The notes beneath the pieces were generated by a model. It was not told the DNA's origin. It searched no databases and saw nothing but the letters and a program-made list of their open reading frames with translations. From Alcanivorax sp. DSM 26293 (GTDB lineage: Bacteria > Pseudomonadota > Gammaproteobacteria > Pseudomonadales > Alcanivoracaceae), in NCBI RefSeq assembly GCF_900107995.1, contig NZ_FNUM01000002.1, forward strand, positions 84,283 through 148,282: a DNA stretch of 64,000 nt. Direction: 5' to 3'. This document shows positions 17,677 through 51,676 of this stretch, in pieces. Position 1 is the stretch's first letter, and each line of letters starts with the position of its first letter. The translations under genes and the position numbers were made by a program.

Positions 17677-17693
17677 CTCAGGTCCTGCGACCC

Positions 17694-17734
17694 GACCGGG
17701 AAATGCCTGACAGGGGGGCAGGCTGTTCCCGGTC
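17694..17734 (+). terminator. Hairpin after the first GMC gene
   Basis: Outer stem GACCGGGAA (17694-17702) pairs with TTCCCGGTC (17726-17734); inside it GCCTG (17705-17709) pairs with CAGGC (17719-17723). There is no U-run after it, so it may be a Rho-dependent or 3'-end-stabilising structure rather than a classical intrinsic terminator. Confidence 0.5.
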
Positions 17735-18190
17735 ACCGGGGAGCCTCTGAATCCCCCCTTGAATGCCCGGTCTGGATGACCCGGGAGCATGGGCTGAGCA
17801 CGCCAGAGCCAGGGCCTGGTCTGAAGGGCCCATGGGCTGCGTGCTGTCGCCGGGAACGGGAACCATCGGCATCCTTCTGGCCACGCTGAGTACCCAAGGG
17901 GGTATTCAGGGCTCCCAAGGGCTTTGGCGTTTGTAACGGTTTGTTATAGACTGGGGTCTGCGTCCGTAGCCTCATGGCGATGCCTGACGTAAGCCGTTGC
18001 CGTTACAGTAAATTTTCTTCAGTCGGTTGTATTGCCAGATACGCCGCTTGTTCACGAAAAGGCCTGTGACAACAACGTCTTCACCATGCATCCCCGCTAG
18101 GGCCACGGATTCGGATCGCTAAAAAGATTACCGCTCCACCAATAACAACAAGGGCCCAATGGACGCCGGGCCTGCCCAGGAGAGGGTTCG
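17735..18190 (+). other. Long leader before the second Tat/GMC pair, no gene found
   Basis: About 455 bases without a convincing gene. A TATAGA at about 17946-17951 (CGGTTTGTTATAGACTGG) is a candidate -10 element, but its -35 match is poor. A strong ribosome site AGGAGAGGG precedes ATG 18191. The long untranslated leader, if real, separates this pair from pair 1, suggesting independent expression. Confidence 0.35.
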
Positions 18191-18787
18191 ATGAATAACA
18201 ACAAGCGTGCGCCGCTGCCCGGCTTCCTTGCCGGCCTGGAGCCGTTGAGCCGCCGCAGTTTTCTGCGTAGCTCCGTGCTTGCCAGCGCTGCAGTCACTTC
18301 CGGTTGTGCCAGCATGTTCGGGCGCAGAGACGCCCCGCAAACGCTGCAATATCACAGTCTCAATCAGGATGAAGCCCGGGTTATCAGTCGCCTCACGGAA
18401 GTGATGCTACCCACGGCTCATTACGGACTGCCGTCCAGCACCGAGGTTGTGCCCACCGTCAAAAACGTGGATGCCATGGCGCAGCGTATGCCTCAGCAGA
18501 CCCGGGAGTTGCTTGGTCTCGGGATCTGGGTATTCAACAATCGGCCAATGGTCAGCTTCAAGTTCAGTCAGTTCACCTCCCTCTCCGACGACAAGGCCCT
18601 GGATTACGTCAACGCCATGCAGGAAGGCTCCTTTTTCGAGCGAGGCCTGATGACCACGTTGAAAGCGCTGGTGGCGTTGAACTATTGGCGTGATGAGCGC
18701 ACCTGGCCGGGACTGGAATACCACGGTCCGGTAACCGAAGTGTGGGGCGTACGACGCCTCGGTAATGCGCCGTTGCCGCGAGCCTGA
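18191..18787 (+). CDS. Tat lipoprotein, small subunit of a GMC dehydrogenase (pair 2)
   Basis: A 198-residue protein with twin-arginine motif LSRRSFLRSS (Arg21-Arg22) followed by a lipobox VTSGC (Cys39), so it is probably exported folded and then lipidated. The remainder is similar to the pair-1 small subunit (15512-16141), including the C-terminal NYWRDERTWP and RLGNAPLP segments. It precedes its large subunit by nine bases. The lipid anchor would tether the complex to the membrane; pair 1 lacks a lipobox. Confidence 0.8.
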   Translation: MNNNKRAPLPGFLAGLEPLSRRSFLRSSVLASAAVTSGCASMFGRRDAPQTLQYHSLNQDEARVISRLTEVMLPTAHYGLPSSTEVVPTVKNVDAMAQRMPQQTRELLGLGIWVFNNRPMVSFKFSQFTSLSDDKALDYVNAMQEGSFFERGLMTTLKALVALNYWRDERTWPGLEYHGPVTEVWGVRRLGNAPLPRA

Positions 18788-18796
18788 GGGGGAATT

Positions 18797-20395
18797 ATGG
18801 CTTTTGTACGTGTCGCCCGTGACGGTGTCCCTGTCACCGAGGCAAAAGATGTGGCCCTGGACGCAAACCTGGGCAAACGGTTTACCCTGAAAACCGATGT
18901 GGTTGTGGTTGGTTCCGGCGCGGCCGGTTCCATTGTCGCCTATGAAATGGCGAAAGCCGGCCGGGACGTGTTGGTGCTGGAATCCGGTCGCTATTACCCC
19001 AGCTCCAAGTTTACCGAACACCTGGGCGATACCATGACCCAGATCTATCAGGATCAGGTTGGCCAGGTGAATACCACTGCGGACATCATCTTTGTCCAGG
19101 GGGCCTGTGTCGGTGGCTCCACGGTGATCGGCGCTTGCGTGATGGAAGAACCCGGTGATGAAGTACTGGATCGCTGGGCCAGTGACTATGGTCTTGAGAA
19201 CCTGGCGGCGAAAAAATTCCGCCCCTATCTGGATGGGGTGGCCGACCAGTTGCAGATCCACATCAATGAAGCGCACGAAATCAACGCCTGCGCCCACAAG
19301 GTGATTCAGGGCTGCGAGAAAATGCAGTTTTCCTGGAAACCGGCCCAGCGCAACGTGAAACAATGTGCCCTTACCGGGCACTGTCTGGCAGGCTGCCCCT
19401 CCGACCGAAAAATGAGTTCCCTGGTGACCCATCTGCCATGGGCGGCCGCCCATGGCGCGCGGATTTTCTCGGATACGGAAGTGGTCCGTGTGCGCACCCG
19501 TGATGGTCGTGCCCGGGGGGTAGAAGCGCGCATTACCGATCCCGACAGCGGCGCCCACGTGGCTGACATGCAGGTGGATGCGGACATGGTGGTACTGGCC
19601 GCCGGGGCTATCCATACGCCACTGATCATGCAGCGTAGCCAGCTGGAGGATCGCAGTGGTCAGCTGGGTCGAAATCTGTCTATTCAGCCTTTCACTCAGG
19701 TTCTGGGCAAGTTCAAGGAGCCGCTCTATGGCTTCCGTGGAGCACTGGTCGGCGTGCAGGTTGACGAGTTTACCCGCAGCGATGGTTACACCATTTTCTC
19801 CGGTTTGGCTGAACCGGAATCCCTGTTGGCTCAGGGTGACATGAAGGCGGGCAAGGCCCATATCGACTTCATGAAAGACTACAAGTACTACGCCGGTGTA
19901 AATGCCTTCAGCACCGACCAGGGCAGGGGATATGTGGAATGGTCCGGGGATGCCTACAGCGGTGACAAGACCATCCACTGGAATCCCAACCGGGAAGAAT
20001 TCAATAACATGAAGGCTTCCGCCGCCCTGGCAGCACGTATTTTCTTTTCCGGTGGTGCGGAAAAGGTTTACATGCCGACGTTCCAGAATCTGGAGGTGGA
20101 TTCCGTGTTTGCCCTAGATGAAACCCTGGAAAAGGTGGATTACGGTCTGAAGGGCATGTACACCTTCCGGGCCAACAGCTTCAGCCCCCACGGAACCTGT
20201 CGCATGGGATCTGACCCCTATGAGGCGGTGGTGGCTCCCACTGGCCAGGTCTATGGCACTGCGGGGTTGTTCGTGGCGGATGCCAGCCTGATTCCGGCAC
20301 CCATGACCGCACCGATTCAGTGGACCGTGCAGGCCCTGGCCCAGTACGTCAGTGACCAGATCAACGAAAACGCACACAATTACTTTATCGGTTGA
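18797..20395 (+). CDS. GMC-family FAD-dependent oxidoreductase (pair 2), altered active site
   Basis: A 532-residue paralogue of the protein at 16138. It has the FAD fold VVVVGSGAAGSIVAYEMAKAG, the cysteine cluster QCALTGHCLAGCPSDRKMS and the active-site histidine in SFSPHGTCRMGSDP. The second catalytic position, Asn in pair 1 (VNPQITVYALA), aligns with Pro in TAPIQWTVQALA, so the usual His/Asn partner is lost. It may use a different catalytic arrangement or substrate. Ribosome site GAGGGGG before ATG 18797. Substrate unknown; an alcohol or lipid is inferred from the neighbouring alcohol dehydrogenase and thioesterase. Confidence 0.82.
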   Translation: MAFVRVARDGVPVTEAKDVALDANLGKRFTLKTDVVVVGSGAAGSIVAYEMAKAGRDVLVLESGRYYPSSKFTEHLGDTMTQIYQDQVGQVNTTADIIFVQGACVGGSTVIGACVMEEPGDEVLDRWASDYGLENLAAKKFRPYLDGVADQLQIHINEAHEINACAHKVIQGCEKMQFSWKPAQRNVKQCALTGHCLAGCPSDRKMSSLVTHLPWAAAHGARIFSDTEVVRVRTRDGRARGVEARITDPDSGAHVADMQVDADMVVLAAGAIHTPLIMQRSQLEDRSGQLGRNLSIQPFTQVLGKFKEPLYGFRGALVGVQVDEFTRSDGYTIFSGLAEPESLLAQGDMKAGKAHIDFMKDYKYYAGVNAFSTDQGRGYVEWSGDAYSGDKTIHWNPNREEFNNMKASAALAARIFFSGGAEKVYMPTFQNLEVDSVFALDETLEKVDYGLKGMYTFRANSFSPHGTCRMGSDPYEAVVAPTGQVYGTAGLFVADASLIPAPMTAPIQWTVQALAQYVSDQINENAHNYFIG

Positions 20396-20404
20396 CCGCT
20401 AACG

Positions 20405-20428
20405 GCTCGGGACAACCGTGTCCCGGGC
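20405..20428 (+). terminator. Hairpin after the second GMC gene
   Basis: CGGGACA (20408-20414) pairs with TGTCCCG (20419-20425) around the loop ACCG; the stem extends outward through a T-G wobble to about 20405 and 20428. Followed by a pyrimidine-rich stretch but not a U-run. Confidence 0.5.
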
Positions 20429-20608
20429 CTGCCTTCCTGTCCGATTCCGGTTTGATTCTGTTAACGCCATTGTCTCGGGTGAAGCGGATTTTTGGCGTGC
20501 GTCGACAGGCTGGCGCGACGCAAAATGCCGCTCCCACGGCGTCATCCGCCATCCCCGCCTGTGCTAGCATTGATGCCTCAGTCGGCACGTTTTTTCAGGA
20601 GAGTCATC

Positions 20609-21766
20609 ATGCCGGGTTTCGAATTCGCAACCACCCATCGTGTGCTGGTAGAGGCGGGTGCTGCCGGCCGTCTGCCGGCCCTCTGTCAGGAGCGCGGCGC
20701 CAGTCGGGTACTGCTTGTCACGGATCCGGGTATTCGCAGCACGCCACTGCTGGAACCGGTGGAAGACAGCTTTCGTCAAGCGGGTATGCCGCTGACCGTC
20801 TTTGATCAGGTTAGCGCTGACCCGGCAGATACCATTGTGCTGGATGCCGCACGGCAGGCGAAGGAAGCGAAAGCAGATCTGGTGATTGGCTTCGGTGGCG
20901 GTTCCTCCATGGATGTGGCCAAGCTGGTGGCGTTGCTGGCACACCCGGATTCCAGCCAGCAATTGTCGGATATCTATGGTGTGGGAATGGCAACCGGACC
21001 CCGCTTGCCGCTGATACAGGTGCCGACCACGGCGGGCACCGGTTCGGAGGTGACTCCGGTGGCCATTGTCACCACCGGTGCCACCACCAAGGCGGGTGTG
21101 GTGGCGCCATCGTTGCTGCCGGATCTGGCGGTGCTTGATGCAACGCTGACCCTTGGCTTGCCGGCCCATGTGACGGCGGCCACCGGTGTGGATGCCATGG
21201 TTCATGCCATTGAGGCCTACACCAGTGCCCACAAGAAAAACCCCTATTCGGATATGTTGGCCCGTGAAGCACTACGACTGCTGGGGGGCAACCTGGTGAC
21301 CGCGGTGAAAGAGGGCGACAACCTGGCGGCCCGGGAAGCCTGTTTGCTGGGAGCGATGATGGCCGGGCAGGCGTTTGCCAATGCACCGGTGGCCGCGGTC
21401 CATGCGCTGGCTTATCCCCTCGGCGGCCATTTCCATATTCCCCACGGACTGAGTAATTCCCTGGTGTTGCCGGAGGTGCTGAAATTCAACGCCACCGTGG
21501 CGGCCCCGCTGTATGCGGAGTTGGCGCCGATTCTCAGCGACCGGCCCTTCACGGATGCCAATGACGGTGCCCAGGTGCTCATAGAAGCCCTGGAGGCGAT
21601 GATCGATGCGGTTGGCTTGCCGGTGCGTTTGCGCGATGCCGGCGTTACTGAAGAGAGCCTGGAAACCCTGGCATCGGATGCCATGCTTCAACAGCGCTTG
21701 CTGGTCAACAATCCCCGGGACGTTTCCGAAGCGGATGCGTTGGCAATCTACAAGGCGGTGTACTGA
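20609..21766 (+). CDS. Iron-type (group III) alcohol dehydrogenase
   Basis: An NAD(P)-dependent alcohol dehydrogenase of the Fe-ADH family, interconverting alcohols and aldehydes in the cytoplasm. The nucleotide-binding motif GFGGGSSMDVAK and the stretch PTTAGTGSEVTPVAIV are clear. The four metal ligands are Asp195 and His199 (in GVDAMVHAIEAY), His265 (AVHALAYPLGG) and His279 (IPHGLSN), matching the FucO arrangement. ATG 20609 with CAGGAGAG in front gives 385 residues, the normal length; in-frame upstream codons would lengthen it without family support. The stop overlaps the thioesterase start by one base (TGATG). Probable role: oxidation of alcohols produced or handled by the flanking GMC enzymes. 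Confidence 0.92.
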   Translation: MPGFEFATTHRVLVEAGAAGRLPALCQERGASRVLLVTDPGIRSTPLLEPVEDSFRQAGMPLTVFDQVSADPADTIVLDAARQAKEAKADLVIGFGGGSSMDVAKLVALLAHPDSSQQLSDIYGVGMATGPRLPLIQVPTTAGTGSEVTPVAIVTTGATTKAGVVAPSLLPDLAVLDATLTLGLPAHVTAATGVDAMVHAIEAYTSAHKKNPYSDMLAREALRLLGGNLVTAVKEGDNLAAREACLLGAMMAGQAFANAPVAAVHALAYPLGGHFHIPHGLSNSLVLPEVLKFNATVAAPLYAELAPILSDRPFTDANDGAQVLIEALEAMIDAVGLPVRLRDAGVTEESLETLASDAMLQQRLLVNNPRDVSEADALAIYKAVY

Positions 21767-22197
21767 TGGCAGAGAAAGGGAGCCGGCCTGAGCGCGGCGA
21801 GTATGGTTATCTGTGTCCCGTTGACAGTCGCTGGAGCGATAACGATATCTACGGTCACATCAATAATGTGGTCTATTACAGCTATTTCGATTCCACCATC
21901 AACCGTTACCTGATCGACGAGGGCGGCCTGGATATTCACGATGGGGAGCAGATTGCTTTTGTGGTGAGCTCGGGTTGTGAATATCTGGAAGCCGCTGCCT
22001 ATCCGGATTCATTGGTGGTGGGCATGAAGGTGGAAAAACTGGGCAGCAGTTCGGTGCGCTACGGTCTGGCCCTGTTCGGGGCTGAAGGGCCGGCGAAGGC
22101 CACCGGCTTTGTGGTTCACGTTTTTGTGAACCGGGAAAGCGGACGGCCGGTACCGATCCCGGCGTCGTTGCGCGCAGCGCTGGAGGCGCTTGCCTGA
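21766..22197 (+). CDS. Hot-dog acyl-CoA thioesterase (4-hydroxybenzoyl-CoA thioesterase type)
   Basis: A 143-residue single hot-dog domain protein. The motif RWSDNDIYGHINNVVYYSYF carries the catalytic aspartate and the GHINN helix start of the 4HBT/YbgC type. Such enzymes hydrolyse acyl-CoA thioesters to free acids; chain-length preference cannot be read from sequence. It overlaps the alcohol dehydrogenase stop (TGATG), so the two are translationally coupled. A palindromic repeat and a strong bidirectional terminator follow. Confidence 0.88.
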   Translation: MAEKGSRPERGEYGYLCPVDSRWSDNDIYGHINNVVYYSYFDSTINRYLIDEGGLDIHDGEQIAFVVSSGCEYLEAAAYPDSLVVGMKVEKLGSSSVRYGLALFGAEGPAKATGFVVHVFVNRESGRPVPIPASLRAALEALA

Positions 22198-22245
22198 CAG
22201 GCAGGCGCGTTTTGACTTTGGCAGCCACCCAATGGTGTCTGGGGT

Positions 22246-22322
22246 AGGGTGCACTGAGCCTCAGGCGAACTGCACCATCAAACGCCGAATCGGTGCAGTT
22301 CGCCTGAGGCTCAGTGCACCCT
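22246..22322. repeat. Perfect palindrome with 31-base arms (copy 1)
   Basis: Arms 22246-22276 and 22292-22322 are exact reverse complements, beginning AGGGTGCACTGAGCCTCAGG, around a 15-base spacer (ATCAAACGCCGAATC). A second copy at 37338-37414 lies in the opposite orientation and differs by one base per arm, with the two changes compensating each other. A decayed copy is at 2788-2839. It is located between convergent genes. Confidence 0.92.
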
Positions 22323-22357
22323 GCGCATTAACAGCCAGGACGAGGTTGCCCCATCAC

Positions 22358-22392
22358 AAAAAAAGCCCGGCCTTTTGAGCCGGGCTTTTTTT
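22358..22392. terminator. Bidirectional intrinsic terminator
   Basis: An A-run, then AAGCCCGGC, loop CTTTTGA, GCCGGGCTT and a T-run: a GC-rich stem flanked by A and T runs on both sides. It can end transcription of the alcohol dehydrogenase/thioesterase genes (+) and of the ExbB/ExbD/AgmX operon (-), whose last gene stops at 22410. Confidence 0.9.
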
Positions 22393-22409
22393 GTGGCTGA
22401 TCGTCCGGA

Positions 22410-23387
22410 TCAGTTCGGGAAGAAGTTCAACTTGTAGTCTCCCTTCCAGGTTTCCACATTCATGGCACCGAAGTCCATGCCTTTGGCAATCAGCATGATG
22501 CGTCTTTCCAGTTGGCTGTCGCCCAGCTGGCTGGATTTCACTTTCACATCCTGTACCTCGCCGCTGGGGGCAATCACCAGGTAGAGCACGACAGTCCCCT
22601 GCAGGGCAGGGTTGCTGCGCAGCGCCCGCTGGTACTGACTGTTGAACTTGCCAGCGTAACGGTCGAATACGCGACGTAGCTGCTCCTGGGTGCGGCGGCT
22701 CTTGCCGTCACTGCCCTTGCGGGTTGTGCTGGCTGCCTGACCGGATTCGGCGATCTTACTATCCACCTTGCCGCCGCCAACCGTGCCGGCCGACAGGGTG
22801 CCGCCACCGCCGCCACCGCTGGACGCTCTGGCGGTGGCAATTCCGCCGGAGCCGGCACCGGCACGCTTGCCGATCAGGTCACGCTCGGCCTTGGCGGCGC
22901 TATCCCCACCGGTACGCAGGTTGTCGCCGGCATTGACCAGGGGACCGATATCATCCAGCCCGGCCAGTGAGTCTCCCAGATCTTCTTCCAGCTTGGCCTG
23001 GGCTTTTTCCCGTGCCTGTTCCCGTTCCACCTCAGCAGGCCGTGGTTCCGGTTCTGGCTCAGGCTTGGGTTCCGGCTTTGGCTCTTCCGGTTCGGGCTTT
23101 TCTTCAGGCTCTTCTTCCTCAGGTTCGGGCTCCGGTTCGGGTTCTGGCGGTGGCGGTTCTTTTTGTTTTTCAAGAACCAGCTGTGCCAGTCGTTCCGGGA
23201 TTTCCTGCTGTTCTCGCGGATCCGGTTTTTCAATGGTCACTGATTCCACCACGATCATCAGCAGCAGCGACAGAATCAGCAAAATGACAATGATGCCGTA
23301 CAGTCGCCGGTCTTCCCCCTCTTGTTTGTCCCAGGGCAGTGAGCCATCGATGAGTATGCGCAGCGTGTTATTGTTTTTCTGCGTCAT
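22410..23387 (-). CDS. AgmX/PglI C-terminal-domain, TonB-like protein
   Basis: A 325-residue TonB-like energy-transducing protein. Order: short cytoplasmic N-terminus, one membrane segment (about residues 29-47), a long Pro/Glu/Lys-rich periplasmic spacer (about 75-118, repeats of PEP/KPEPE), a Gly/Ser-rich region and a C-terminal AgmX/PglI-type domain (YQRALRSNPALQGTVVLYLV to MDFGAM). That domain is known from Myxococcus gliding-motility proteins and from many proteobacterial proteins of unknown role. Its ATG overlaps the preceding ExbD-like gene by four bases, so it is the last member of the nine-gene operon. Predicted role: carry energy from the ExbB/ExbD motor to periplasmic or outer-membrane TPR partners. 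Confidence 0.85.
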   Translation of the reverse strand: MTQKNNNTLRILIDGSLPWDKQEGEDRRLYGIIVILLILSLLLMIVVESVTIEKPDPREQQEIPERLAQLVLEKQKEPPPPEPEPEPEPEEEEPEEKPEPEEPKPEPKPEPEPEPRPAEVEREQAREKAQAKLEEDLGDSLAGLDDIGPLVNAGDNLRTGGDSAAKAERDLIGKRAGAGSGGIATARASSGGGGGGTLSAGTVGGGKVDSKIAESGQAASTTRKGSDGKSRRTQEQLRRVFDRYAGKFNSQYQRALRSNPALQGTVVLYLVIAPSGEVQDVKVKSSQLGDSQLERRIMLIAKGMDFGAMNVETWKGDYKLNFFPN

Positions 23388-23884
23388 TCAGACTCCTCCT
23401 CTGCCACTTTCAGGACAGCAAAGGCGACCTTGGTATAGGGCGTTTCCATGCAGCTGCGCATCAGTTTCTTGATCACTGCATAGGGCACATCCCGGTCAGC
23501 CTGAATCATGACTTCCCGCTCTTCTTCCGAATCCAGGGCAAGTGCCCGGGAAGCCCGGAATTTCAGCTCTTCTACCAGAGCCTCAACGGTGCGCTCTTCC
23601 TGTGCTCTTACCGCCTGGGTATCGGCAATCTTGCGCCCATCAATCACCACCGAGGAGGGGCTCACCTGAATAATGAGCACATCGTTAGGCAGTTCCTGAG
23701 CGGTGGATTCCGGTAACTGGATATCCTGATCATCCGGCAATTTGGCGGCATTGTTGTTATTGACCAACAGAAAGATCAGCAGGATGGTGAAGATATCCAT
23801 CAATGCGGTCAGGTTCAGGGTGGCAACCATCTTGTGGCGACCATGGTGTCGTGCCATACGGCGTGCGCGGGCAGACTTTTTCAT
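23384..23884 (-). CDS. ExbD/TolR-family proton-channel protein, canonical Asp
   Basis: A 166-residue bitopic inner-membrane protein. A basic N-terminus leads into a single membrane helix LTALMDIFTILLIFLLV with the conserved proton-carrying aspartate (Asp30). A periplasmic ExbD/TolR domain follows, including MIQADRDVPYAVIKKLM. It should assemble with the ExbB-type protein of the operon as a stator complex. It overlaps both neighbours by four bases (ATGA). The sister protein encoded just before it has Asn in place of this aspartate. Confidence 0.9.
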   Translation of the reverse strand: MKKSARARRMARHHGRHKMVATLNLTALMDIFTILLIFLLVNNNNAAKLPDDQDIQLPESTAQELPNDVLIIQVSPSSVVIDGRKIADTQAVRAQEERTVEALVEELKFRASRALALDSEEEREVMIQADRDVPYAVIKKLMRSCMETPYTKVAFAVLKVAEEESE

Positions 23885-24411
23885 GCCTCACCTCCCGCTG
23901 CCGCAGTCTGATCCTGGGGTGCCGAGCCAATGCTGATACTCGGGAACAGCTCTTTCTTGATGGTCTGGCCATTGATCTGCGTGTTGTAAAGACGCACTGC
24001 GTCCATGGTGTGGATCATCACCTCATAGGGGGTGTCATCCTCACAGAGCAGGGTAATGGCTGTCTCTTCAGGGAATTTCTCTTTCAGGGTGACAAGATAG
24101 TCGTGCAGGGCTTTACTATCGTGTTTGTCCCCCTGGTTATCGACAATTTTCAGTACGGCACTGGTGTTGCGGTCCACCACTTCATAGCGGTTACCGTAAA
24201 TCAGTACTTCGAGTACCAGTTTGTCTTTTTCGTCGTCTTCCGAGGGAGTGCTGCTGTCATTCACCGCGGGCAGATTCAACTGCAGGATGGAGACCTGCGC
24301 GAAGACCGCGTTGATCAGCAGAAAAGGAATCAGCACTACCATCAGATTCAGAAAGGCAGTGATGTTCAGTTCCACATCGGTGTCGCGCGAACGTCGTCTG
24401 CGAAATCGCAT
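23881..24411 (-). CDS. ExbD/TolR-like protein with Asn in place of the proton-carrying Asp
   Basis: A 176-residue bitopic protein of the ExbD/TolR family. The helix reads ITAFLNLMVVLIPFLLINAV; the position of the essential Asp of ExbD, TolR and the sister protein is Asn22 (codon AAT on the minus strand). The periplasmic part has LLCEDDTPYEVMIHTMDAVR, as in TolR-like domains, with an acidic insertion (STPSEDDEKDK). It probably forms a heterodimer with the Asp-containing partner, giving a stator with one protonatable site. Its start is 43 bases downstream of the ExbB gene. Confidence 0.88.
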   Translation of the reverse strand: MRFRRRRSRDTDVELNITAFLNLMVVLIPFLLINAVFAQVSILQLNLPAVNDSSTPSEDDEKDKLVLEVLIYGNRYEVVDRNTSAVLKIVDNQGDKHDSKALHDYLVTLKEKFPEETAITLLCEDDTPYEVMIHTMDAVRLYNTQINGQTIKKELFPSISIGSAPQDQTAAAGGEA

Positions 24412-24454
24412 ACCAGATCCTTACACCAGATTGGCGAAAACAAGAAAATACGGC

Positions 24455-25144
24455 TTATTGGCCGTCGTTCTTGCGCTCTTGCTGGGCAGAAACCTGGCGG
24501 AAGACGTTAACGAATTTCACCGAGGCCATTTCCATGCTGTCCACCAGTTTGCCGGCCATGGCGTTGATAAAGGCAAAGGCCAGAAGCATGGGGATAGCGG
24601 CAATCAGGCCGAAGGCGGTGGTGTTCATGGCCACGGAAATGGAGGCAGACAACAGATCGGCTTTCTGTGCCGGGTCGGCACTGGCTACGGCGGTAAACGC
24701 GCTGATCAGACCCAGAATCGTCCCCAGCAGGCCGAGCAGGGTGGCGATGTTGGCAAAGGTGCCGATGTAGGGAGTACGGGCTTCCAGGCGCGGGATGATT
24801 TCCATCAGGCCTTCTTCCATGGCCAGTTCGATATCGTCGTGACGCTTGGCAGTCTTGGCTCGCTCAAGACCATAGCCGATCACCTTGGCCATGCCGGTAT
24901 TGCTGTTACTGACCACATCCAGGGCCTGACGGAATTGGCCTTTGGCGATCAGCGGGTAAACATCTTTCCAGGTTTTCTGGTTCTTTGCCTTGGTGGCCTG
25001 GAGGTAAATGATACGTTCCAGGGACAGGGCTAGGCCCAGTGCCAGGACAACCAGAATGGGATACATGAAGAAACCGCCATCCTGAATAAAGGTGATTGCG
25101 GTCTCAACAACGCCGGTGTTCTGCGCGGTGGCGGTGGTGGGCAT
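24455..25144 (-). CDS. MotA/TolQ/ExbB-family proton-channel protein
   Basis: A 229-residue inner-membrane protein with three membrane segments: GGFFMYPILVVLALGLALSL, then IATLLGLLGTILGLISAF and AFGLIAAIPMLLAFAFINAM, with a cytoplasmic loop between the first two. The conserved threonines in segments 2 and 3 (GTILG, NTTAFG) match TolQ/ExbB. It is the proton-conducting core of a motor that powers a trans-envelope device. ATG 25144 with CAGGAGAAG in front is chosen over an upstream in-frame start at 25234. The two ExbD-like proteins and the AgmX-type protein follow in the operon. Confidence 0.93.
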   Translation of the reverse strand: MPTTATAQNTGVVETAITFIQDGGFFMYPILVVLALGLALSLERIIYLQATKAKNQKTWKDVYPLIAKGQFRQALDVVSNSNTGMAKVIGYGLERAKTAKRHDDIELAMEEGLMEIIPRLEARTPYIGTFANIATLLGLLGTILGLISAFTAVASADPAQKADLLSASISVAMNTTAFGLIAAIPMLLAFAFINAMAGKLVDSMEMASVKFVNVFRQVSAQQERKNDGQ

Positions 25145-25284
25145 GGACTTCTCCTGCGGTATACCTGTTAGAGTTATTGTTTCCCATGCGACATTGCCCG
25201 GACTCGGGTTGCCGCACCTTCCCCAAAGTGCCAATTTTTATCAGAAAAAAGGCGTGGGTGCATCTAATGATATTGATGGATGTA

Positions 25285-25572
25285 TTATTTCAGGAACAGA
25301 TCGTCGTTATCCGGCTCCTGATTGAGTAGCTGGTGATACTCGATTTCCCGCATCAGCACCTCCTGATCAAGGGGTTCCAGTACCCGATTGAGCAGGGACG
25401 AGGTGGGATCTTTTTTCTCAAGCTTCACCTCACGGTCTTTCCAGGGCACCACATTCAATACCGTGGGGGCTTCCTGGGTGCCGATCACATTGGTTGACGC
25501 TTCCTGTCCAGTGTCATCAGCCTGGCTGACGCAGGCACAGGCGAGGGCAGCCATGACGAGTAATAGTCGCAT
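25285..25572 (-). CDS. Small secreted protein of the ExbB/ExbD operon, function unknown
   Basis: A 95-residue product with an N-terminal signal peptide (MRLLLVMAALACACVSQA, cleavage probably before DDTG). The mature part of about 77 residues is highly charged (KDREVKLEKKDPTSS, EIEYHQLLNQ) and acidic at its C-terminus. It shows no domain I recognise. It starts at the last base of the upstream TPR-lipoprotein gene (one-base overlap), which supports it being a real gene and part of the same complex. Confidence 0.7.
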   Translation of the reverse strand: MRLLLVMAALACACVSQADDTGQEASTNVIGTQEAPTVLNVVPWKDREVKLEKKDPTSSLLNRVLEPLDQEVLMREIEYHQLLNQEPDNDDLFLK

Positions 25573-26324
25573 CAGTTCAGTTCTCCATTCTTGTTCCCGG
25601 CATCCTGGTTTGCCACTGGCTGGGCGGGGGACTCCGGCGCCCGGCGTTGCAAGTCCACAATCCAGTTGGCGACGTTCTCATCGGGCTGTTTCTGTAGATT
25701 CTGGTAGGCCTGGAAATGCTTCAGTGCCAGATTCAGATCCTGCAAGTAGAGCTCGGCGAGCACGGCCATGTTGAAATGGGCACGGGCATATTTTGGATCC
25801 AGAACCAGCGCCCGTTCGTAATGAATGCGCGCATCATCGAACTTTCCCTGTTCCCGCAACGCCAGGCCAAGGCCATTGTGGGCATAAGGGTTTGCATCGT
25901 TGATGGCCAGGGATTGTTCGAAGGCCTGCTGTGCTTTGGGGTAGTCCTCCTGTTCCATGTAGATCAGACCCACATTGAGCGCAGGACCGGACAGTTGCGG
26001 AAAACGCTCACTCAGTGAGCGAAACATCACCAGGGCTTGCTTGTCGTTGCCAGCCATTCGTGCCTGCAGGGCACGGGCATATTCCGCCATGGCCTGCTCG
26101 GCGATCTTTTCCACCTTGGGGTCATGGGGGACTGGCGGAATATGAATGGCGTCACTGTCGGCGGCAGCACCACCGTCTTTCTGTTGCTCATATTTGCTGG
26201 TGCCGCCTTCGCCGGAGCCTTCCAGTCCGAGGCCGCCCTTGCTGGCACAACCTGACAGCACCAATGCAGCGAGCAATGCGGTGGCCGCGCCCAGGCGGCC
26301 GCGATCAGTAAATAATGTCCACAT
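25572..26324 (-). CDS. TPR lipoprotein (250 residues)
   Basis: Lipoprotein signal with lipobox VLSGC (Cys26), a low-complexity linker, then at least three to four TPR units between about residues 70 and 210 (for example YAHNGLGLALREQGKFDDAR and ARAHFNMAVLAELYLQDLNL). TPRs build protein-binding superhelices; a lipid anchor would hold this one at the inner face of the outer membrane. The gene overlaps the end of the large TPR-lipoprotein gene by 20 bases. In Myxococcus gliding loci small TPR lipoproteins accompany TolQR-type motors; a similar role is inferred here. Confidence 0.82.
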   Translation of the reverse strand: MWTLFTDRGRLGAATALLAALVLSGCASKGGLGLEGSGEGGTSKYEQQKDGGAAADSDAIHIPPVPHDPKVEKIAEQAMAEYARALQARMAGNDKQALVMFRSLSERFPQLSGPALNVGLIYMEQEDYPKAQQAFEQSLAINDANPYAHNGLGLALREQGKFDDARIHYERALVLDPKYARAHFNMAVLAELYLQDLNLALKHFQAYQNLQKQPDENVANWIVDLQRRAPESPAQPVANQDAGNKNGELN

Positions 26325-29244
26325 AGCTTTCTACCTGTTCAAACTTCGCATAGCGGCCGGGAATCAATTCTGCCAGGGCACCAAAACTTTTCTTTACCCA
26401 CTGGTCATAGATGTCATCAGTCACCAGGTTGGTATTGGCGATAAGAATATCGATGGCCTGGTCCTCGTAGGGGAAGGCCTTGTCCTCCAGAAGCATGGTG
26501 TACTCTTCCAGCTCAAGTTCATCCAGGCCTTTGGGGCGTTCGGATGCGATCAGATCTCGGGCCAGAACCCGGTACATCTCACCAATCTTGTAGTTGGCGG
26601 CGGTGGCGTATTCTGCCACACCGATATCGGCGACCGCCTGATAATCCGCAAGGGCTTTTTTCATCACATCGGTCTTGGCGGCCAGTGAGGTCTTCAGGGG
26701 TTGGCTGAGCGAGATACGCTTGAATTCCTGGAAGTTGGGCTCTGCCAGCGTAAAGCTGGCGTAGGCGGCCAACCAGGCAACCCGGTCGTTGGCCTCGTTA
26801 CCGGCTTCCCGGTAACTGGTGACCAGTTGTTGCAGCCAATAAGTTTCCCGTTCGCTGTTGCCGGTTTTCCGGTTCAGCTCCACCAGCCGGAACTGGGCCT
26901 CAGAGCGGAAATCATAGGGCTGCGGCCATTCCTGCAGGTATTGCTGATAGAGGGCGATGGACGCCTGGGGTTGTTCGGCCCGGTCCTGCATTTCTGCCGC
27001 TTTCCACAATGCCTGGCGGGACAGTTCCGGATCATCACTCTTGTAATTGGCGGCGATCAACTGCAACTCGCCGGCGGACGCTGTGTAGTTGCCTTCTTTC
27101 TCGTAGGCAATGGCGAGCTTGTCCGGAATGGTGTCGGTCAATGGATCGTCGGGATAGCGTTCGCGGAAGGCTTCCAGAACCGGGATTGCAGCGGTGCTGC
27201 GCCCCTGATTGATGAACAGGGTCGCGGCATCGAATTCTGCGTTCTTGCGCACCGCCGCTTCCGGTACTGTCTGGCCCACCCGCAGGAAGGTGGCAGCAGC
27301 GATATCCAGATTGCCTTGTTCCTGCTGCTGCTCGGCCTGGCGGTAAATGCTGACGGCGAGTTTTTCCCGGTACAGGCTGCGCTGCTCGGGAGACATCTGC
27401 ATATCAAGCAGTTTGCCATAGGCCATTTCCGCCACCTTGAAGCGACCCAGGTCGAATTCGCCATTGGCAATGGTGGCCCACCCGTAGCGCATTAGCTCGG
27501 CAGAAGGCGGCGGCTGGCGGTTGACCAGAATACCGGCGGTCTTGACCGCACCTTCCACGTCACCCAGTGCCAGCTGATCCTCGGCGGTGTCATGCAGCAC
27601 ATTGGGGACTTCCGGGTGCGCGGGGAAGCGTTGGCCGTATTGCTGAGCACTGGCAATTTTCTTTTTCCGCCAGGCGTTTTCCTGTTCGGCGTCCGGATTG
27701 CCGTCGAGAATTTTCTGGTAGGCAACCAGGGCATTGAAGGCGGCGTCTCCCCCTTTCTCGTAATCCGGGTATTGATAGGCGGTGCGTTCAAACTCGCTGA
27801 TGGCGGTGGCGTAGTCCTCTGCGGCGTAGAGCACTTCCGCATAGCGGTGATTGACCTTGCCCTGGTCTTCGCTGGCTGGCGGGGTATTCAGATATTCCTG
27901 GTACCAGCGGGCCGGCTCGCGGTAATCCGCGGGCTTGCCGGATTGCTGGGCGAGCACATGGTGGTATTCGGCCAGGTCAAGAATATGTCCCTTGAGCAGC
28001 GATACATACTGTTCGCGAATGTCCGGGTGGCGTCCCCAGTAATCGCTGTTGATGCCATAGTGCTGGATAAACTTCTCTTTTGCCGGAAGCACCAGGGTAG
28101 GGAAGCCGCCTTTCTGATAGGCCTCGATCTGCAGGCTGGAGAACTCCGGCGCCAGGGTCGAATCCGGATACACCTGGACGAACATATCAAAGGCTTCTGC
28201 CGCATCCCGGAAACGCTCCTGGCCAAGATAGACCTGGCCAAGAGAGCGGTAAATCGCCGGTTCATAGTCCCGGTTACCGTTGCGGGCAAACCAGTTTCTC
28301 ACTGAATCCGGACCATCCAGATTACTGAAGGCCAGGCTGACCACGCGCTGAGTATCAGTGAACAGCTTGTTTTCCATGCTGGTGTCGTCAGCCAGTTCGC
28401 TGCGGCCGTTCAGATTGTCCAGCAGGGTGAAGAAGCTGCCCTGGGCCAATTCATAGTCACCCAGTTTGTAATGGCTCCAGCCACGTTTGTAGAGCGCCTG
28501 GTTATAGAATTCATTGTCGGTGCCACGCTTTATCACGTCCGCGTAGGCCTGTTCGGCGTATTCATAGTCGCCATCGGAAAACAGCATTTCACCGCGGCGG
28601 AACTGGGATTCCAGGGCCCATTCACTGTTCGGGTATTGGCTGACCAGAGCGTCCAGACTGGCCTGGGCCTGCTCCAGGTTGCCATCCATGGCATAGGCCT
28701 TGGACAGCAGGTAATAGGCTTCGGCCCGTTGGCCGGGATCGTCGGTACTATTGAGCAGCTCCTGATACAGGGAAATGGCGGTGTCGTAGTCCACATCATG
28801 GTCCGCCAGTGAGGGTGCCATGGTGCCGGCCAGATCCAGCAGCGCCATCTTACGCTCGTTATCCGGGGTGGTATTCACCTGTTCCATGGTGTTGTCGTAA
28901 ACCACCTTGTCCACTTTCTGTTCCAGATCACTGTCATCCTCGCTACCCATTTCCTGTTCGGTAGCCGATGTCAGTGCCAGGTCCGCCATGCGACGCAGGG
29001 TTTTGGCCCGGCGTTCCGGATCATCAAACAGTTCGGCAGCCTGGCGATAGCTGTTCAAGGCATCCTGGGTGCTGGCGCTTTCCAGTTGCTGCTCTTCAAT
29101 GATGATGTCGGTACTTTCCAGATCCGCCAGGGTGGTCCCGCCGAAGCGAGCCTGTTGTTCCAGGGTGCCGTTTTGTGGGGCAGACGCGCAGCCGCCCAGG
29201 GCAATCATTGCGGCGGCCAGGCCATGCAGGCGAAATCGGGTCAC
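26305..29244 (-). CDS. Large TPR lipoprotein (979 residues)
   Basis: Lipoprotein signal with lipobox ALGGC (Cys19), then a long array of TPR or TPR-like helical pairs across most of the protein, for example AEAYYLLSKAYAMDGNLEQA, QALYKRGWSHYKLGDYELAQ, AIYRSLGQVYLGQERFRDAA and QFRLVELNRKTG. No enzyme motif seen. The size and anchor suggest a periplasmic scaffold spanning much of the space between the membranes. Start is GTG 29244, overlapping the stop of the upstream TPR gene (GTGA). It most resembles the large TPR proteins encoded with AgmX/TolQR-type motors. Confidence 0.83.
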   Translation of the reverse strand: MTRFRLHGLAAAMIALGGCASAPQNGTLEQQARFGGTTLADLESTDIIIEEQQLESASTQDALNSYRQAAELFDDPERRAKTLRRMADLALTSATEQEMGSEDDSDLEQKVDKVVYDNTMEQVNTTPDNERKMALLDLAGTMAPSLADHDVDYDTAISLYQELLNSTDDPGQRAEAYYLLSKAYAMDGNLEQAQASLDALVSQYPNSEWALESQFRRGEMLFSDGDYEYAEQAYADVIKRGTDNEFYNQALYKRGWSHYKLGDYELAQGSFFTLLDNLNGRSELADDTSMENKLFTDTQRVVSLAFSNLDGPDSVRNWFARNGNRDYEPAIYRSLGQVYLGQERFRDAAEAFDMFVQVYPDSTLAPEFSSLQIEAYQKGGFPTLVLPAKEKFIQHYGINSDYWGRHPDIREQYVSLLKGHILDLAEYHHVLAQQSGKPADYREPARWYQEYLNTPPASEDQGKVNHRYAEVLYAAEDYATAISEFERTAYQYPDYEKGGDAAFNALVAYQKILDGNPDAEQENAWRKKKIASAQQYGQRFPAHPEVPNVLHDTAEDQLALGDVEGAVKTAGILVNRQPPPSAELMRYGWATIANGEFDLGRFKVAEMAYGKLLDMQMSPEQRSLYREKLAVSIYRQAEQQQEQGNLDIAAATFLRVGQTVPEAAVRKNAEFDAATLFINQGRSTAAIPVLEAFRERYPDDPLTDTIPDKLAIAYEKEGNYTASAGELQLIAANYKSDDPELSRQALWKAAEMQDRAEQPQASIALYQQYLQEWPQPYDFRSEAQFRLVELNRKTGNSERETYWLQQLVTSYREAGNEANDRVAWLAAYASFTLAEPNFQEFKRISLSQPLKTSLAAKTDVMKKALADYQAVADIGVAEYATAANYKIGEMYRVLARDLIASERPKGLDELELEEYTMLLEDKAFPYEDQAIDILIANTNLVTDDIYDQWVKKSFGALAELIPGRYAKFEQVESYVDIIY

Positions 29245-31157
29245 GATCCTTTCCTCTGTGTACTGCCGTCGGATACCGAAGAGTCCTGCAGGCGAGCAAC
29301 GGCCAGATGGGCCTCGGCCAACTGGTCGGCCAGTCTTTGCTGGTTGGCGAGCAGAAGCGCAAGGGCGTCGGCTTTCATGCTCTTTTCCAGAGCCTCAAGT
29401 GTGTCTTCGGTAAGACGTTTTATTGTTTCAATTCGCTGGGTTTGCCCGGCCAGTCGCTGGCCCAGGTCGTCCCGTGTGCGCAGGGTGGCATCACGTATTT
29501 GCTGTTGCACAGCAGCGATTCGTTCGCCAAGCACGCTGCTTTCTTCCCGTAATTGGGTAGCAGCTTGCTCCTGTTTTTCCCGTTGTTCTATCGACTGGTG
29601 GGCAATATCCCACAACAACAGGCCGCGAACCTTGCGCAGCCTCAGTGCATTGGCGTGGGTGGAGCCGGGCAGCGTGCCGAACTGGCGAGCCAGGGCATCC
29701 ACTTTTTTCCACATGACAGCCTGTTCCGGGGTGGCCACGTCCGCGGGGTTGCTCATGTCGACGAAGTTGGGAATGGCGGCGGAGACCCGGTCGCTGGCCA
29801 TGGCCAGCTGTTCCTGGCGGCTCATGTGACGGGTCATTTCCCCGCGCACATGGGGCAGATTGCGACTCAGGCGCTGTTGCTGGATTTGGTGGGTTTCCTG
29901 GAGCGCAGGCAAGGCCTGCTGCCAATTTTCTACCATGGTCTTGATCTGGTGGATCTGCCGGTAGTGCTCGAATCGCTGGGCGAAGTCGTTGCTGGAAAAA
30001 AGCTTGTACAGATAGGAAAGCTCACTGCCCTGGGCAAGATCGCCGCTGTTGGCCGGCAGCAGACCGGTCTGGTTGCGATCCTCCGGTAACAAGGCCTCTG
30101 ACCAGCCTGGCTTGGCGATATTATCGATGGCCCGCTGGACATCCTTCAGGGCCTGGCGATATTCGGCGGCGGCATATTGGTAACCAGCCAGCGCCTGGGG
30201 AAGCCCGCCCAGCTCTTCATAGGCGCGCGGGGCAAGCATCAGTGCTTCCTGGACGGACGGGTGGCTGCTGTTGCGCCGAACGGCTTCCAGCCACAGGGGC
30301 AGGGCACGCTTCACCTCGCCGGCCCGGTAGTTTGCCAGGCCCAGAGCCAGCAGGGCATCTTCGGAAAAGGGGCCATCGCTGCGTACCTGACGCAGGTCGG
30401 CGCGGGCGCTTTGCAAGTTGCCTTCGCGTAATGCCGTCAGACCAGCAGCCAGAGCTGCCCGGTCACGCAGGGCGAGCGCCTGATCGGAACTGCCTCCGGC
30501 CTCCAGCAGAGATTTCAGCAAGGCCAGTCCCTGATCGCGATGGCCGCCACGGATCAATGCCACACCCATGTTATAAGTGGCATAGCGGCCTTCGTCCGTG
30601 CTGAGGGGGACCGAGTGCAGGTAATCCAGGGCGCCGGTGAAGTCCTCCTCGGCCATCAGGATATTCGCCAGCATCAGGCGCCGCCGGGCGTCGTCAGCCG
30701 GGTCCAGGCCTTCCACGTTATCACCGTCGAGGATCATGGCGGCTTCTGCCAGATTGCCCTCGCGGTAGTGTAATGCGGCTTTATGAAGCCAGGTTTGCGC
30801 CCGGGTCCGGCTGAGAATGTCCTTTTCCAGTAGCCGGTTGAAGATCACCTCGGCCTTGCCAGGCAGGCCGTAAGTGACATACAGGTCCCCCAGCAGCAGT
30901 TCCGCGTAATCGGTATCCTCGTTGAACAGCGACAGCTCCTGATTGACCAGAAGCTTGTTGATCGCATTGAAATTGGCGTGTCGATAGTAGTCGAACATGA
31001 CCTCGCCAAAGGCCAAATAACGATGTTCTTCCATACCAAGCGGAACGGGGCCTTCGTTGATATCATCGAAAAACTCGACCTTGGCCGCCTGGGCAGGGGA
31101 TAACAGAGTGGCGAAGCACGCCGCGACCAGCCACCGTTTTCGCCGCCGCTGTATCAT
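29241..31157 (-). CDS. Secreted TPR/coiled-coil protein (about 638 residues)
   Basis: Signal peptide (basic IQRRRKRWLVAACFATLL, cleavage near AQAA), then TPR-like units over about residues 60-330 (YAELLLGDLYVTYGLPGKAE, YATYNMGVALIRGGHRDQGL, LLALGLANYRAGEVKRALPL) and a C-terminal third rich in Gln/Glu/Arg heptads that looks coiled-coil (about 500-630). ATG 31157 overlaps the stop of the preceding gene as ATGA and is preferred to a GTG four codons upstream. Second gene of the operon. No enzyme motif; a periplasmic or outer-membrane scaffold is inferred. Confidence 0.82.
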   Translation of the reverse strand: MIQRRRKRWLVAACFATLLSPAQAAKVEFFDDINEGPVPLGMEEHRYLAFGEVMFDYYRHANFNAINKLLVNQELSLFNEDTDYAELLLGDLYVTYGLPGKAEVIFNRLLEKDILSRTRAQTWLHKAALHYREGNLAEAAMILDGDNVEGLDPADDARRRLMLANILMAEEDFTGALDYLHSVPLSTDEGRYATYNMGVALIRGGHRDQGLALLKSLLEAGGSSDQALALRDRAALAAGLTALREGNLQSARADLRQVRSDGPFSEDALLALGLANYRAGEVKRALPLWLEAVRRNSSHPSVQEALMLAPRAYEELGGLPQALAGYQYAAAEYRQALKDVQRAIDNIAKPGWSEALLPEDRNQTGLLPANSGDLAQGSELSYLYKLFSSNDFAQRFEHYRQIHQIKTMVENWQQALPALQETHQIQQQRLSRNLPHVRGEMTRHMSRQEQLAMASDRVSAAIPNFVDMSNPADVATPEQAVMWKKVDALARQFGTLPGSTHANALRLRKVRGLLLWDIAHQSIEQREKQEQAATQLREESSVLGERIAAVQQQIRDATLRTRDDLGQRLAGQTQRIETIKRLTEDTLEALEKSMKADALALLLANQQRLADQLAEAHLAVARLQDSSVSDGSTQRKGS

Positions 31158-31672
31158 TGCTGGTTCCACTCACGGAATTCAAACTTGTGTTGCTGCTTGT
31201 TCAGGTCATCCACCACCTGCATTTCCACCATTTTTTTGCCAGGTCCCTTGGTAAAGGTATAGCTGGTGGTCTTCTGGTAGTCCTTGCCGAGGGGGTCGTA
31301 GCCGGTAATGGTGGCTTCCATCACATGACGACCACTGGCCAGGTTGCCGGTGTAAAGGCGCTGGATGCCCCCTTTGGTGAGGGCTTCGAATTCCTGGTCG
31401 CTGTAGAAATGGTAGCCCACATGCTCGCCATCAATGGTCAGATTGATATCAACCAGGCGAATGGGCGTGCCCACATCCACGGACACGAAGATACTGGTCT
31501 GCGGGCTGGCGTAGAGCAGCTCCTGTTCCAGAAGGGTCAGGTCACGGTTCAGGTCCAGCGCTTCGCTTTTCAACTGGCGGATCTGTTCGGACAGACCGTC
31601 GTCATCAGCGGCGCTGGCGAACGAACACAGGCCGACAAGGAAGGCGCCGCACAGGGGCAAGATTGCTTTCAT
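31154..31672 (-). CDS. Secreted protein with N-terminal coiled coil, function unknown; first gene of the motor operon
   Basis: A 172-residue product with signal peptide (MKAILPLCGAFLVGLCSFASA). After cleavage a short heptad stretch (LSEQIRQLKSEALDLNRDLTLLEQELL) could oligomerise. The rest is beta-rich (TSIFVSVDVGTPIRLVDINL, GRHVMEATITGYD), resembling an immunoglobulin-like or carrier domain, and ends KFEFREWNQQ. I do not recognise the family. It opens the nine-gene minus-strand operon; the 165-base gap before it is shared with a divergent kinase-like gene and should hold both promoters. Confidence 0.78.
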   Translation of the reverse strand: MKAILPLCGAFLVGLCSFASAADDDGLSEQIRQLKSEALDLNRDLTLLEQELLYASPQTSIFVSVDVGTPIRLVDINLTIDGEHVGYHFYSDQEFEALTKGGIQRLYTGNLASGRHVMEATITGYDPLGKDYQKTTSYTFTKGPGKKMVEMQVVDDLNKQQHKFEFREWNQQ

Positions 31673-31810
31673 GGGGTGGCGATCGCTTTATGTTGTTGTT
31701 ATTGGCCGGTAACCCGGCTGGCGTAATGCCTAGTTGTAATCAGAAGAATGGCTTAAATCAAGGGGAACAGTCAGTCATTATTGGCCGTGAGAGCCGATTT
31801 TGGTGGCTTC

Positions 31811-31816
31811 TATAGT
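31811..31816 (+). promoter_or_regulatory. Candidate -10 element for the fructosamine kinase-like gene
   Basis: TATAGT lies 22 bases before ATG 31838 in the divergent gap. No convincing -35 element is seen at the right distance, so this is only a candidate. Confidence 0.25.
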
Positions 31817-31837
31817 CAAAGAGTTGCGTTTATTTTT

Positions 31838-32698
31838 ATGAAATTACCTGTATTGCTGCAACAGGGGCTGAATGAAGCTGGCCTGGAGGGCAACTGGACC
31901 CTGACGCCGATGGCGGGGGGCGATACCGCCCGTAGCGCAATGCTCGAGGACGGAGAGAGCCGTTATTTCGTCAAACAGCATCGCAATCCCCTGTTGCTGG
32001 AGGCGGAAGCCCTCGGCCTGGAGACGCTGGCACCCACCCTGAGAGTTCCCCGGGTGGTGCATTGCCATTCGGCCCCGGAGGGCGGGGTGCTGATTCTTGA
32101 ATACCTGGACATTGCCCCTCTCACGGGCAGTAGCCAGTGGATGGCCGCCGGATCAGCACTGGCCTGTCTGCACCGCACCGAGTGCCCGGCCCTCTATGGC
32201 AATCACCCGGACAACTTTATTGGCGGCAGCGCACAGAGCAATACGAGCCACAGCGACTGGGTGGCCTTTTTTGCCAATGAAAGACTGCTTCCCCAATGGC
32301 AACGGGCGCGGCAACGGGGGTTGCCGACCACGGCGGTTGAACGGACCGGGCAGGTCATTGACCAGCTGCACCGCTGGCTACCTTCCCGGCCACCCTGTGC
32401 CCGGCTCCATGGTGATCTCTGGCAGGGCAACCTGGGTCAGGTTAACGGCGATCCGGTGTTCTACGATCCGGCCTGTTATCATGGCGACCCACAGGTGGAC
32501 CTGGCCATGCTCAATCTGTTTGGTGGAGTGCCTGCAGCGTTTTTTCAGGGCTACCAGTCGGAGTCTGCCACGGTGTTGCAATACCAGGCCTGGCCAGTCT
32601 ATGACCTGTACCATTGGCTGAATCACTACAACCTTTTCGGTGGCCAGTATGCCCGGGCAGTGGATGATACCGCCCGTCGTCTGCTGGCTGCCCGCTGA
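31838..32698 (+). CDS. Fructosamine kinase-family protein (FN3K-like)
   Basis: A 286-residue protein of the fructosamine/ketosamine kinase family, a protein-kinase-like fold that phosphorylates sugars attached to amines so that glycated proteins or small amines can be repaired. Seen: [23 protein letters not shown] (ATP-binding lysine and helix C), [29 protein letters not shown] (catalytic loop HGDLW-GN and metal-binding DP). ATG 31838 aligns with family N-termini; an in-frame TTG at 31781 would add 19 unsupported residues. Substrate cannot be told. Confidence 0.88.
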
Positions 32699-40177: not shown

Positions 40178-40196
40178 TTAAATGATAATGCCTCTC
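40178..40196 (+). promoter_or_regulatory. Weak candidate Fur box upstream of the iron permease
   Basis: The core ATGATAAT (40182-40189) matches the centre of the 19-base Fur consensus GATAATGATAATCATTATC, with 12 of 19 positions matching overall. It lies 28 bases before the chosen ATG 40224 of an FTR1-type iron permease, so iron repression is plausible, but the match is modest. Confidence 0.3.
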
Positions 40197-40223
40197 CTTT
40201 TCATCGTGAACCCGGTTCATTTT

Positions 40224-49735: not shown

Positions 49736-51676
<1,941 letters not shown>

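Follow-up and report, generated by a model that had tools for sequence, protein, structure and literature searches.

Nine genes on the minus strand of a 64,000-nucleotide stretch of Alcanivorax sp. DSM 26293 (contig NZ_FNUM01000002.1; the whole stretch is called the window below) form an operon that appears to encode the motor and the periplasmic connecting parts of an Agl/Glt-type machine. The first-pass annotation had described a single operon here with mostly overlapping genes, and this was confirmed by the open reading frames (ORFs), which occupy positions 22410-31672 with the sizes given then, and by their junctions. From the first gene (P9) to the fifth (P5), in the 5' to 3' direction, the genes overlap by 16, 4, 20 and 1 bases; a 140-base gap precedes exbB, a 43-base gap follows it, and the last two junctions are again overlaps, of 4 bases each. 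The exbB start was chosen from the sequence as the ATG at 25144, downstream of a ribosome-binding site, which gives an ExbB of 229 amino acids (aa). A promoter scan found no minus-strand site across 22150-31900, and terminator-like sites such as the hairpin in Table 1 are about equally frequent by chance (13 found, shuffle mean 11.5).

By homology the proteins are an ExbB-type channel subunit with two different ExbD-type partners, a GltG-type transducer (AgmX), two tetratricopeptide repeat (TPR) lipoproteins (GltD and GltE), and two secreted proteins (GltC and P9). Pfam matches were MotA_ExbB (E 6e-26), ExbD in both subunits (1.8e-17 and 1.9e-12) and TPRs in three proteins, with none up to E 0.1 for P9 or P5. 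The 325-aa transducer scores 56.1 bits against a cut-off of 40 with NF033768, the AgmX/PglI C-terminal domain, and no FHA domain was found in it by the Pfam scan. Among solved structures TolQ scores best against ExbB (4.5e-11), one of four MotA/ExbB-type genes in the window's genome. Throughout, L numbers denote loci or stretches read, G numbers genomes, and C numbers contigs of the genome concerned.

Table 1. Features of the operon, in order of transcription
Feature	Position	Strand	Remarks
P9, 172-aa secreted protein, first gene of the operon	31154..31672	-	N-terminal helix (24-54), then beta-sandwich (predicted)
GltC-like 642-aa secreted TPR protein	29241..31169	-	TPR domains; Myxococcota profile matches in the same gene order
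GltD-like 979-aa TPR lipoprotein	26305..29244	-	TPR domains; Myxococcota profile matches
GltE-like 250-aa TPR lipoprotein	25572..26324	-	TPR domains; match in L246
P5, 95-aa secreted protein in the GltF position	25285..25572	-	Position only; GltF homology not established
ExbB/TolQ/AglR-type channel subunit, 229 aa	24455..25144	-	MotA_ExbB domain
ExbDa, 176-aa ExbD-type subunit (AglQ side)	23881..24411	-	Asn22 in place of the TolR/ExbD Asp
ExbDb, 166-aa ExbD-type subunit (AglS side)	23384..23884	-	Conserved Asp30
AgmX, 325-aa GltG-like inner-membrane transducer	22410..23387	-	Acidic/proline-rich linker, AgmX/PglI C-terminal domain
Terminator-like hairpin after the AgmX gene	22364..22381	-	Consensus match only

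Relationship to the Agl/Glt core complex

Luciano et al. (2011) described a cluster in several gammaproteobacteria that combines homologues of gltC, gltD, gltE, gltG, aglR, aglQ and aglS with an extra gene; the function of this core complex was stated to be unknown, and the extra gene is said to have no Myxococcales homologue (PMC3169522). Wartel et al. (2013) presented the core complex as a possible basal transport machine (PMC3858216), and no later answer as to its function was found in the open-access literature. Judged from its sequence, the window operon is this core complex, a kind already published, and the earlier label of an uncharacterised candidate does not hold.

Homology of the motor, the AgmX-type transducer and the TPR adaptors to Agl-Glt, proposed in the first-pass annotation along with a profile search, was borne out when profiles built from gammaproteobacterial loci were run against 17 Myxococcota stretches (Myxococcus sp. 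CA023, L112 and G414, plus G415 and G416). Counterparts were matched for GltC, GltD, GltE, GltG, AglR, AglQ, AglS and the 172-aa P9. GltD-like matches ranged from 2.9e-100 (L258) to 1.5e-21 (L261) and GltC-like matches, the weakest of any family, from 4e-11 (L258) to 0.0049 (L261); GltC is the weakest link in the family assignment, this TPR protein being supported mainly by gene position. On contig C9 of G414 the order is GltD-like (1e-74), GltE-like (1.5e-36, L246), a small secreted ORF and GltG-like (4.5e-23), and a motor set at L253 matched ExbB/AglR (8e-52), ExbDa/AglQ (3.7e-24) and ExbDb/AglS (1.4e-33). Genes for P9, GltC and GltD, in the order of the window, adjoin mglA in both G414 (L254; E-values 1.7e-8, 3.4e-6 and 2.3e-99) and G415 (L258; 3.3e-7, 4e-11 and 2.9e-100), and at L258 the cluster goes on after GltD with GltE, a small ORF and AgmX. 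Profile-profile alignment (hhalign) of P9 with both Myxococcota homologues gave a probability of 96.4 and E 1.1e-9. The paralogue cluster beside the gliding regulator gene mglA in Myxococcus sp. CA023 was seen at L254:5891-7792, and the ORF next to it is presumably mglB-like.

In trees with midpoint rooting and no outgroup, gammaproteobacterial GltD is set off from Myxococcota by a long branch, and for both GltD and GltC a well-supported branch separates the window-type genes from the rest. P5 was also compared with GltF: it scored 25.1 with signal peptides kept (5 of 100 shuffles higher), 13.3 without them (at least 8 of 200 higher), and 16.7 against 18 Myxococcota sequences, 15 of them usable from 30 loci plus 3 others (2 of 200 higher). 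P5 is kept as a counterpart of GltF in position only.

Conservation of the gene order

In an even sample of 369 gammaproteobacterial genomes from across the class, 84 have a P9 homologue. Within the window's family, 30 of 46 genomes have GltD-like genes; these are present in none of 13 species of one of its genera and, in the same survey, were not found in G369; these absences indicate that the operon is dispensable.

Among 53 chosen loci, the window included, all nine genes were complete and in order in 41, a count that is partly circular in that the profiles were built from those same loci, and that depends on assigning ORFs with length rules (20 of 53 without them, GltE being displaced by other TPR matches). 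The remaining 12 comprise two cut by a stretch or contig end (L059, L083), five without a recognisable GltC, three without the motor, one without GltE (L061) and one that is odd (L086). The first 19 distant loci, compared by tblastn with the window proteins, show the same order with some pieces missing. Of 40 further loci, 19 had all nine genes in order; among the other 21, contig ends cut four (L344, L347, L378, L382), 13 lacked the motor, three had all nine in a different or doubled order (L348, L349, L351) and one lacked GltE (L376). This retention of gene order in distant gammaproteobacteria argues that the operon is not a chance assembly and sustains the earlier premise that its TPR genes are conserved together with the motor; P9 (172 aa) and P5 (95 aa) also belong to the conserved unit.

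An asparagine in one of the two ExbD subunits

The two ExbD-type subunits differ at the residue which, in TolR, is the proton site. In an ungapped HMMER alignment Asn22 of the window's ExbDa falls on this transmembrane Asp (chain position 23), and the AglQ-type proteins of all five Myxococcota motor loci have Asp there. With loci of one genome counted separately, Asn was found in 69 of 71 gammaproteobacterial loci (47 of 48 plus 22 of 23), the exceptions being L061 (Asp) and L376 (Ser); the second set leaves out L363 and L367, whose TolR-like matches score 24 and 26 as against 209-223 in three complete loci. ExbDb has Asp (Asp30 in the window) in 49 of 49 and 23 of 23 loci. Six genomes of Geobacteraceae and relatives gave no match and are uninformative about the swap. 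At L363:12355-13491 and L367:99-1236 a P9-GltC-GltD set with no motor was observed, with what look by sequence like a TolQ/TolR pair within several kb.

The likeliest inference is that ExbDa and ExbDb would form an obligate heterodimer with one proton site. Counting against this, an acid lies six residues before the ExbDa site in 24 of 48 copies (23 Asp, 1 Glu; not the window's), so that a "proton-dead" ExbDa can be no more than inferred. If only one arm does carry protons, a working motor would need the other ExbD subunit. According to a 2022 review, AglQ and AglS each have a conserved aspartate, and the choice between heterodimer and homodimer is undecided (PMC9389320). The nearly fixed Asn of ExbDa may be regarded as a natural mutant that bears on this question, and an axle with a single Asp, if true, would answer whether pairs of the AglQ/AglS type function as heterodimers.

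Outer-membrane and redox module on contig C18

The operon was found in three settings: alone, with an outer-membrane and redox module, or with a giant DUF11 protein. It stands alone, in the stretches read, in the window's family (L074-L082), at L048, and at distant complete loci such as L103, L104, L107 and L108. Module genes are held by 16 of the 19 distant loci L048-L066, which are mostly best P9 matches; 11 of these 16 hold the complete set of nine operon genes, GltE is missing from L061, L059 is truncated by a contig end, and L053, L054 and L060 lack the motor. The module genes encode ApbE, a ResA/TlpA-type thioredoxin, an OMP_myx_plus barrel, an SH3-plus-barrel protein, a DUF3570-related barrel, an HZS-alpha-like lipoprotein, a LamG protein, a 407-aa protein with CxxCH motifs, and a 526-aa protein with a twin-arginine-like start.

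The window's genome carries the module on another contig, C18, at about 31-47 kb, with a second P9-GltC pair. This locus holds the OMP_myx_plus, SH3 and DUF3570-related barrels, the ResA/TlpA-type thioredoxin, ApbE and cytochrome-like secreted proteins, and no GltD, motor or AgmX in the stretch read. Of 17 genomes of the genus, 16 carry the C18-type P9, and exactly those also carry the window-type GltD; where such pairs were read, GltC was beside P9 in eight of eight and module genes in seven of eight. In G372, a close relative, the module has a complete second motor operon, of DUF11 type, on one side and the P9-GltC pair on the other (L071, L335). OMP_myx_plus is encoded next to Glt genes in Myxococcus; one member exceeds the cut-off on C18 and none in the operon, and none was found in 14 control genomes. 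GltA and GltB presumably belong to this family.

A similar division is seen across the class, where P9 loci were read for 67 of 84 genomes and five of the 67 dropped (four contig-end cuts and the odd locus of G285). A second P9 locus is present in 12 of 17 genomes whose P9 locus lacks the motor, compared with 5 of 45 with the motor at their loci, and in the 11 motor-less genomes whose second locus was read the motor was there each time. In G206, G081 and G310 gltC is missing from the motor operon but present in the motor-less module; motor operons with no recognisable gltC, in genomes whose motor-less module has one, were noted at L101, L102 and L105. This gltC split and the enrichment of second loci say more than the count of 11 of 11. 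The DUF3570-related subfamily is linked to P9 as well, 56 of the 57 genomes having it also having P9 (84 of 369 overall), on the same contig in 45 of the 56, within 20 kb in 43 and within 2.5 kb in 30. Other DUF3570 genomes show no clear link (P9 in 13 of 38, p 0.1).

The DUF11-type branch

The third setting is a second, separate copy of the operon, present in some family members and in six distant genomes; in the GltC tree a 100/100 branch separates the 13 rows of this type from the others. In the six distant genomes a relative of the DUF11 giant, of 1.6-5.0 thousand residues (some cut by contig or stretch ends), directly follows AgmX, and in five of them a partner related to a two-OmpA-domain protein is present as well; in the sixth, L296, the contig ends. 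DUF11 giants after AgmX were observed at L096:2054-19998 and L293-L298, with a partner bearing two OmpA domains, and the four whose ends were read (L094-L097) end in C-terminal regions that resemble one another and may act as a sorting signal. The window's genome has DUF11 genes on contigs C12 and C7; several large DUF11-repeat proteins are encoded at 79-96 kb of C12 (L092, L093), where the 40 kb read contains no motor gene.

Proposed mechanism and alternatives

We lean, with modest confidence, towards a reading in which the operon supplies the motor of an Agl/Glt-type force machine together with its linkage through the periplasm, and would also be the engine for the C18 module. Protons would flow through a 5:2 motor, an ExbB ring with a heterodimeric ExbDa/ExbDb axle of which only ExbDb would carry the proton-binding Asp, and the motor would move AgmX (motor chemistry after established work on TolQR, ExbBD and AglRQS). 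AgmX may then pull through the cell wall, via a GltC/GltD/GltE/P9 linkage, on outer-membrane barrels, for which the OMP_myx_plus, SH3 and DUF3570-related proteins of C18 are the candidates, and the output would be display, movement or anchoring of surface proteins. The window operon would in this way be a motor shared between its own adaptors and the C18 module, a reading suggested because the operon has no barrels and the best candidates are at C18, which has no motor. Sharing has a precedent in AglRQS, described in the cited account as serving both Glt and Nfs (PMC3858216). The cargo is the least certain step; two hints to it are a Fibrobacter cluster tied to cellulose and cellulases, and the adhesin-like giant of the DUF11 branch.

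Several points weigh against a shared motor. The proposed coupling to C18 draws on genes and neighbourhoods, and the window operon has its own P9-GltC pair and may work alone. In G375 (L338) no module gene is near the second P9-GltC pair in the 20 kb read, and the co-occurrence in the genus rests on a single genome without both, perhaps one loss. The count of 11 of 11 covers 11 of the 17 motor-less genomes and is weak taken alone, a motor being present at most P9 loci in any case. P9 and the DUF3570-related subfamily are on different contigs in 11 of 56 genomes, 15 of 84 P9 genomes have no DUF3570 and 28 of 84 none of the related subfamily, and the Fisher p-values for this co-occurrence and for second-locus enrichment ignore relatedness. 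The NCBIfam equivalog cut-offs were not reached by the operon proteins (GltG 49.3 of 650, GltE 40.3 of 225, GltJ 33 of 450 bits). A flavinylated DUF3570 barrel was considered as the payload and rejected: the published flavinylation motif was found in one of nine of these DUF3570-related members, so a flavin role is not established.

Of the alternatives, the one that survives best, though we hold it to be unlikely, is self-contained envelope upkeep in the manner of Tol-Pal, the motor and its own TPR lipoproteins tethering or remodelling the outer membrane independently of the C18 module. The nine loci L074-L082 of the window's family, where the operon is alone and the 20 kb read shows no module genes, would fit this, as would the metabolic neighbours in the window and the operon's own P9-GltC pair; the GltD-like protein also passes tol_pal_ybgF (95.3 against 90.1 bits), which alone shows only TPR likeness. 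However, distant relatives tie the operon to the module, the operon is dispensable as judged by the absences from G369 and the 13 species noted above, and a tolQ-tolR-tolA-tolB-like cluster is found elsewhere in the same genome (L301, contig C7). The names in that cluster are putative, being assigned from gene order, and one of the genome's MotA/ExbB-type genes lies inside it.

That cells glide or crawl with the operon is improbable. Homology to the Agl-Glt gliding machine, and the sub-branch with a giant adhesin-like DUF11 protein and OmpA-domain partner, speak for it; the window copy, however, is not followed by a DUF11 giant, the transducer has no FHA domain that could be found, the operon has a single AgmX-type gene, and Luciano et al. 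argue that the core is not enough by itself to power motility (PMC3169522). A Ton-type energiser for uptake of a nutrient such as hydrocarbons, for which ExbB, ExbD, the TonB-like C-terminus and the adjoining alcohol-oxidising genes could be cited, is very improbable: TonB_C (PF03544) scores 18.2 against a cut-off of 24.6 bits and TIGR01352 26.7 against 27.1, the TPR lipoproteins and extra secreted proteins are conserved with the motor, no alcohol-oxidising neighbours were seen beside the mapped distant loci, and, as the first-pass annotation had it, there is no TonB-dependent receptor nearby (none among 20 other window ORFs, the part of the window and genome that was scanned).

A wider and more tentative proposal, about which we are doubtful, is that gammaproteobacteria have a modular proton engine, one ExbD arm of which would be proton-dead, with various outer-membrane payloads: either the redox, cytochrome and barrel module, which here would have split off to C18 with its own docking pair, or a DUF11 adhesin of 4-5 thousand residues with its OmpA-domain partner. 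If true, the engine would be a general mover of surface proteins. The neighbourhoods name candidate partners for the core complex (the C18 module) and a second payload (the DUF11 giant and its partner). The operon is of a known kind; what makes its function testable is three features of which no description was found in the open-access literature searched, namely the Asn substitution in ExbDa and the links to the module and to the DUF11 giant.

Genes around the operon

The operon lies among metabolic and housekeeping genes: GMC oxidoreductases with an iron alcohol dehydrogenase to one side, a fructosamine kinase-type gene to the other. At 16138-21766 (plus strand) the two GMC oxidoreductases and the iron-containing alcohol dehydrogenase would fit alcohol or hydrocarbon metabolism. 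Farther away, one protein encoded at 40182-42143 (plus) joins an FTR1-type iron permease to a cytochrome c domain, and at 49736-56223 (minus) biotin carboxylase and carboxyltransferase genes lie with one for an AMP-binding enzyme, possibly (the pathway is a guess) for leucine or terpenoid degradation.

Comparison with known systems

Fibrobacter succinogenes FSU_2396-2403 lists OmpA, TPR, TPR, ExbB, ExbD, ExbD and TonB entries numbered consecutively (PMC6851124); the likeness drawn here is one of gene lists, and the paper itself reads the cluster as a Ton uptake system. The TPR protein FSU_2397 is reported in a surface complex with cellulases, and the TPR, ExbB, ExbD and TonB entries are up 1.2-1.7 fold on cellulose (PMC6851124).

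With TolQR-TolA-Pal and ExbBD-TonB the window operon shares a homologous motor, but it differs in having two unlike ExbD subunits and a TPR linkage, and in encoding neither TolB nor Pal nor a receptor (the Pfam and NCBIfam matches of its nine proteins included none of the TolB or Pal models). Among described systems it matches the published Agl/Glt core complex; of the marks of a Ton or Tol system, TonB_C stayed below its cut-off, and TolB and Pal (among the nine proteins) and a receptor (among the 20 window ORFs scanned) were not found. The M. xanthus Agl-Glt and Agl-Nfs (spore-coat) machines likewise have a motor with a GltC/D/E/G-type linkage (PMC3169522, PMC3858216), and there one motor is common to two complexes (PMC3858216); here, in contrast, no FHA domain was found on the transducer, ExbDa has Asn for Asp, and the candidate barrels are at another locus. 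Closest is the core complex of Luciano et al., which has the same seven gltC-E, gltG and aglR, aglQ, aglS homologues in one cluster with an extra gene (PMC3169522). The conserved unit described here has two further genes (172 aa and 95 aa), and whereas the extra gene, not named in the text cited, is given as having no Myxococcales homologue (PMC3169522), P9 has homologues in Myxococcota.

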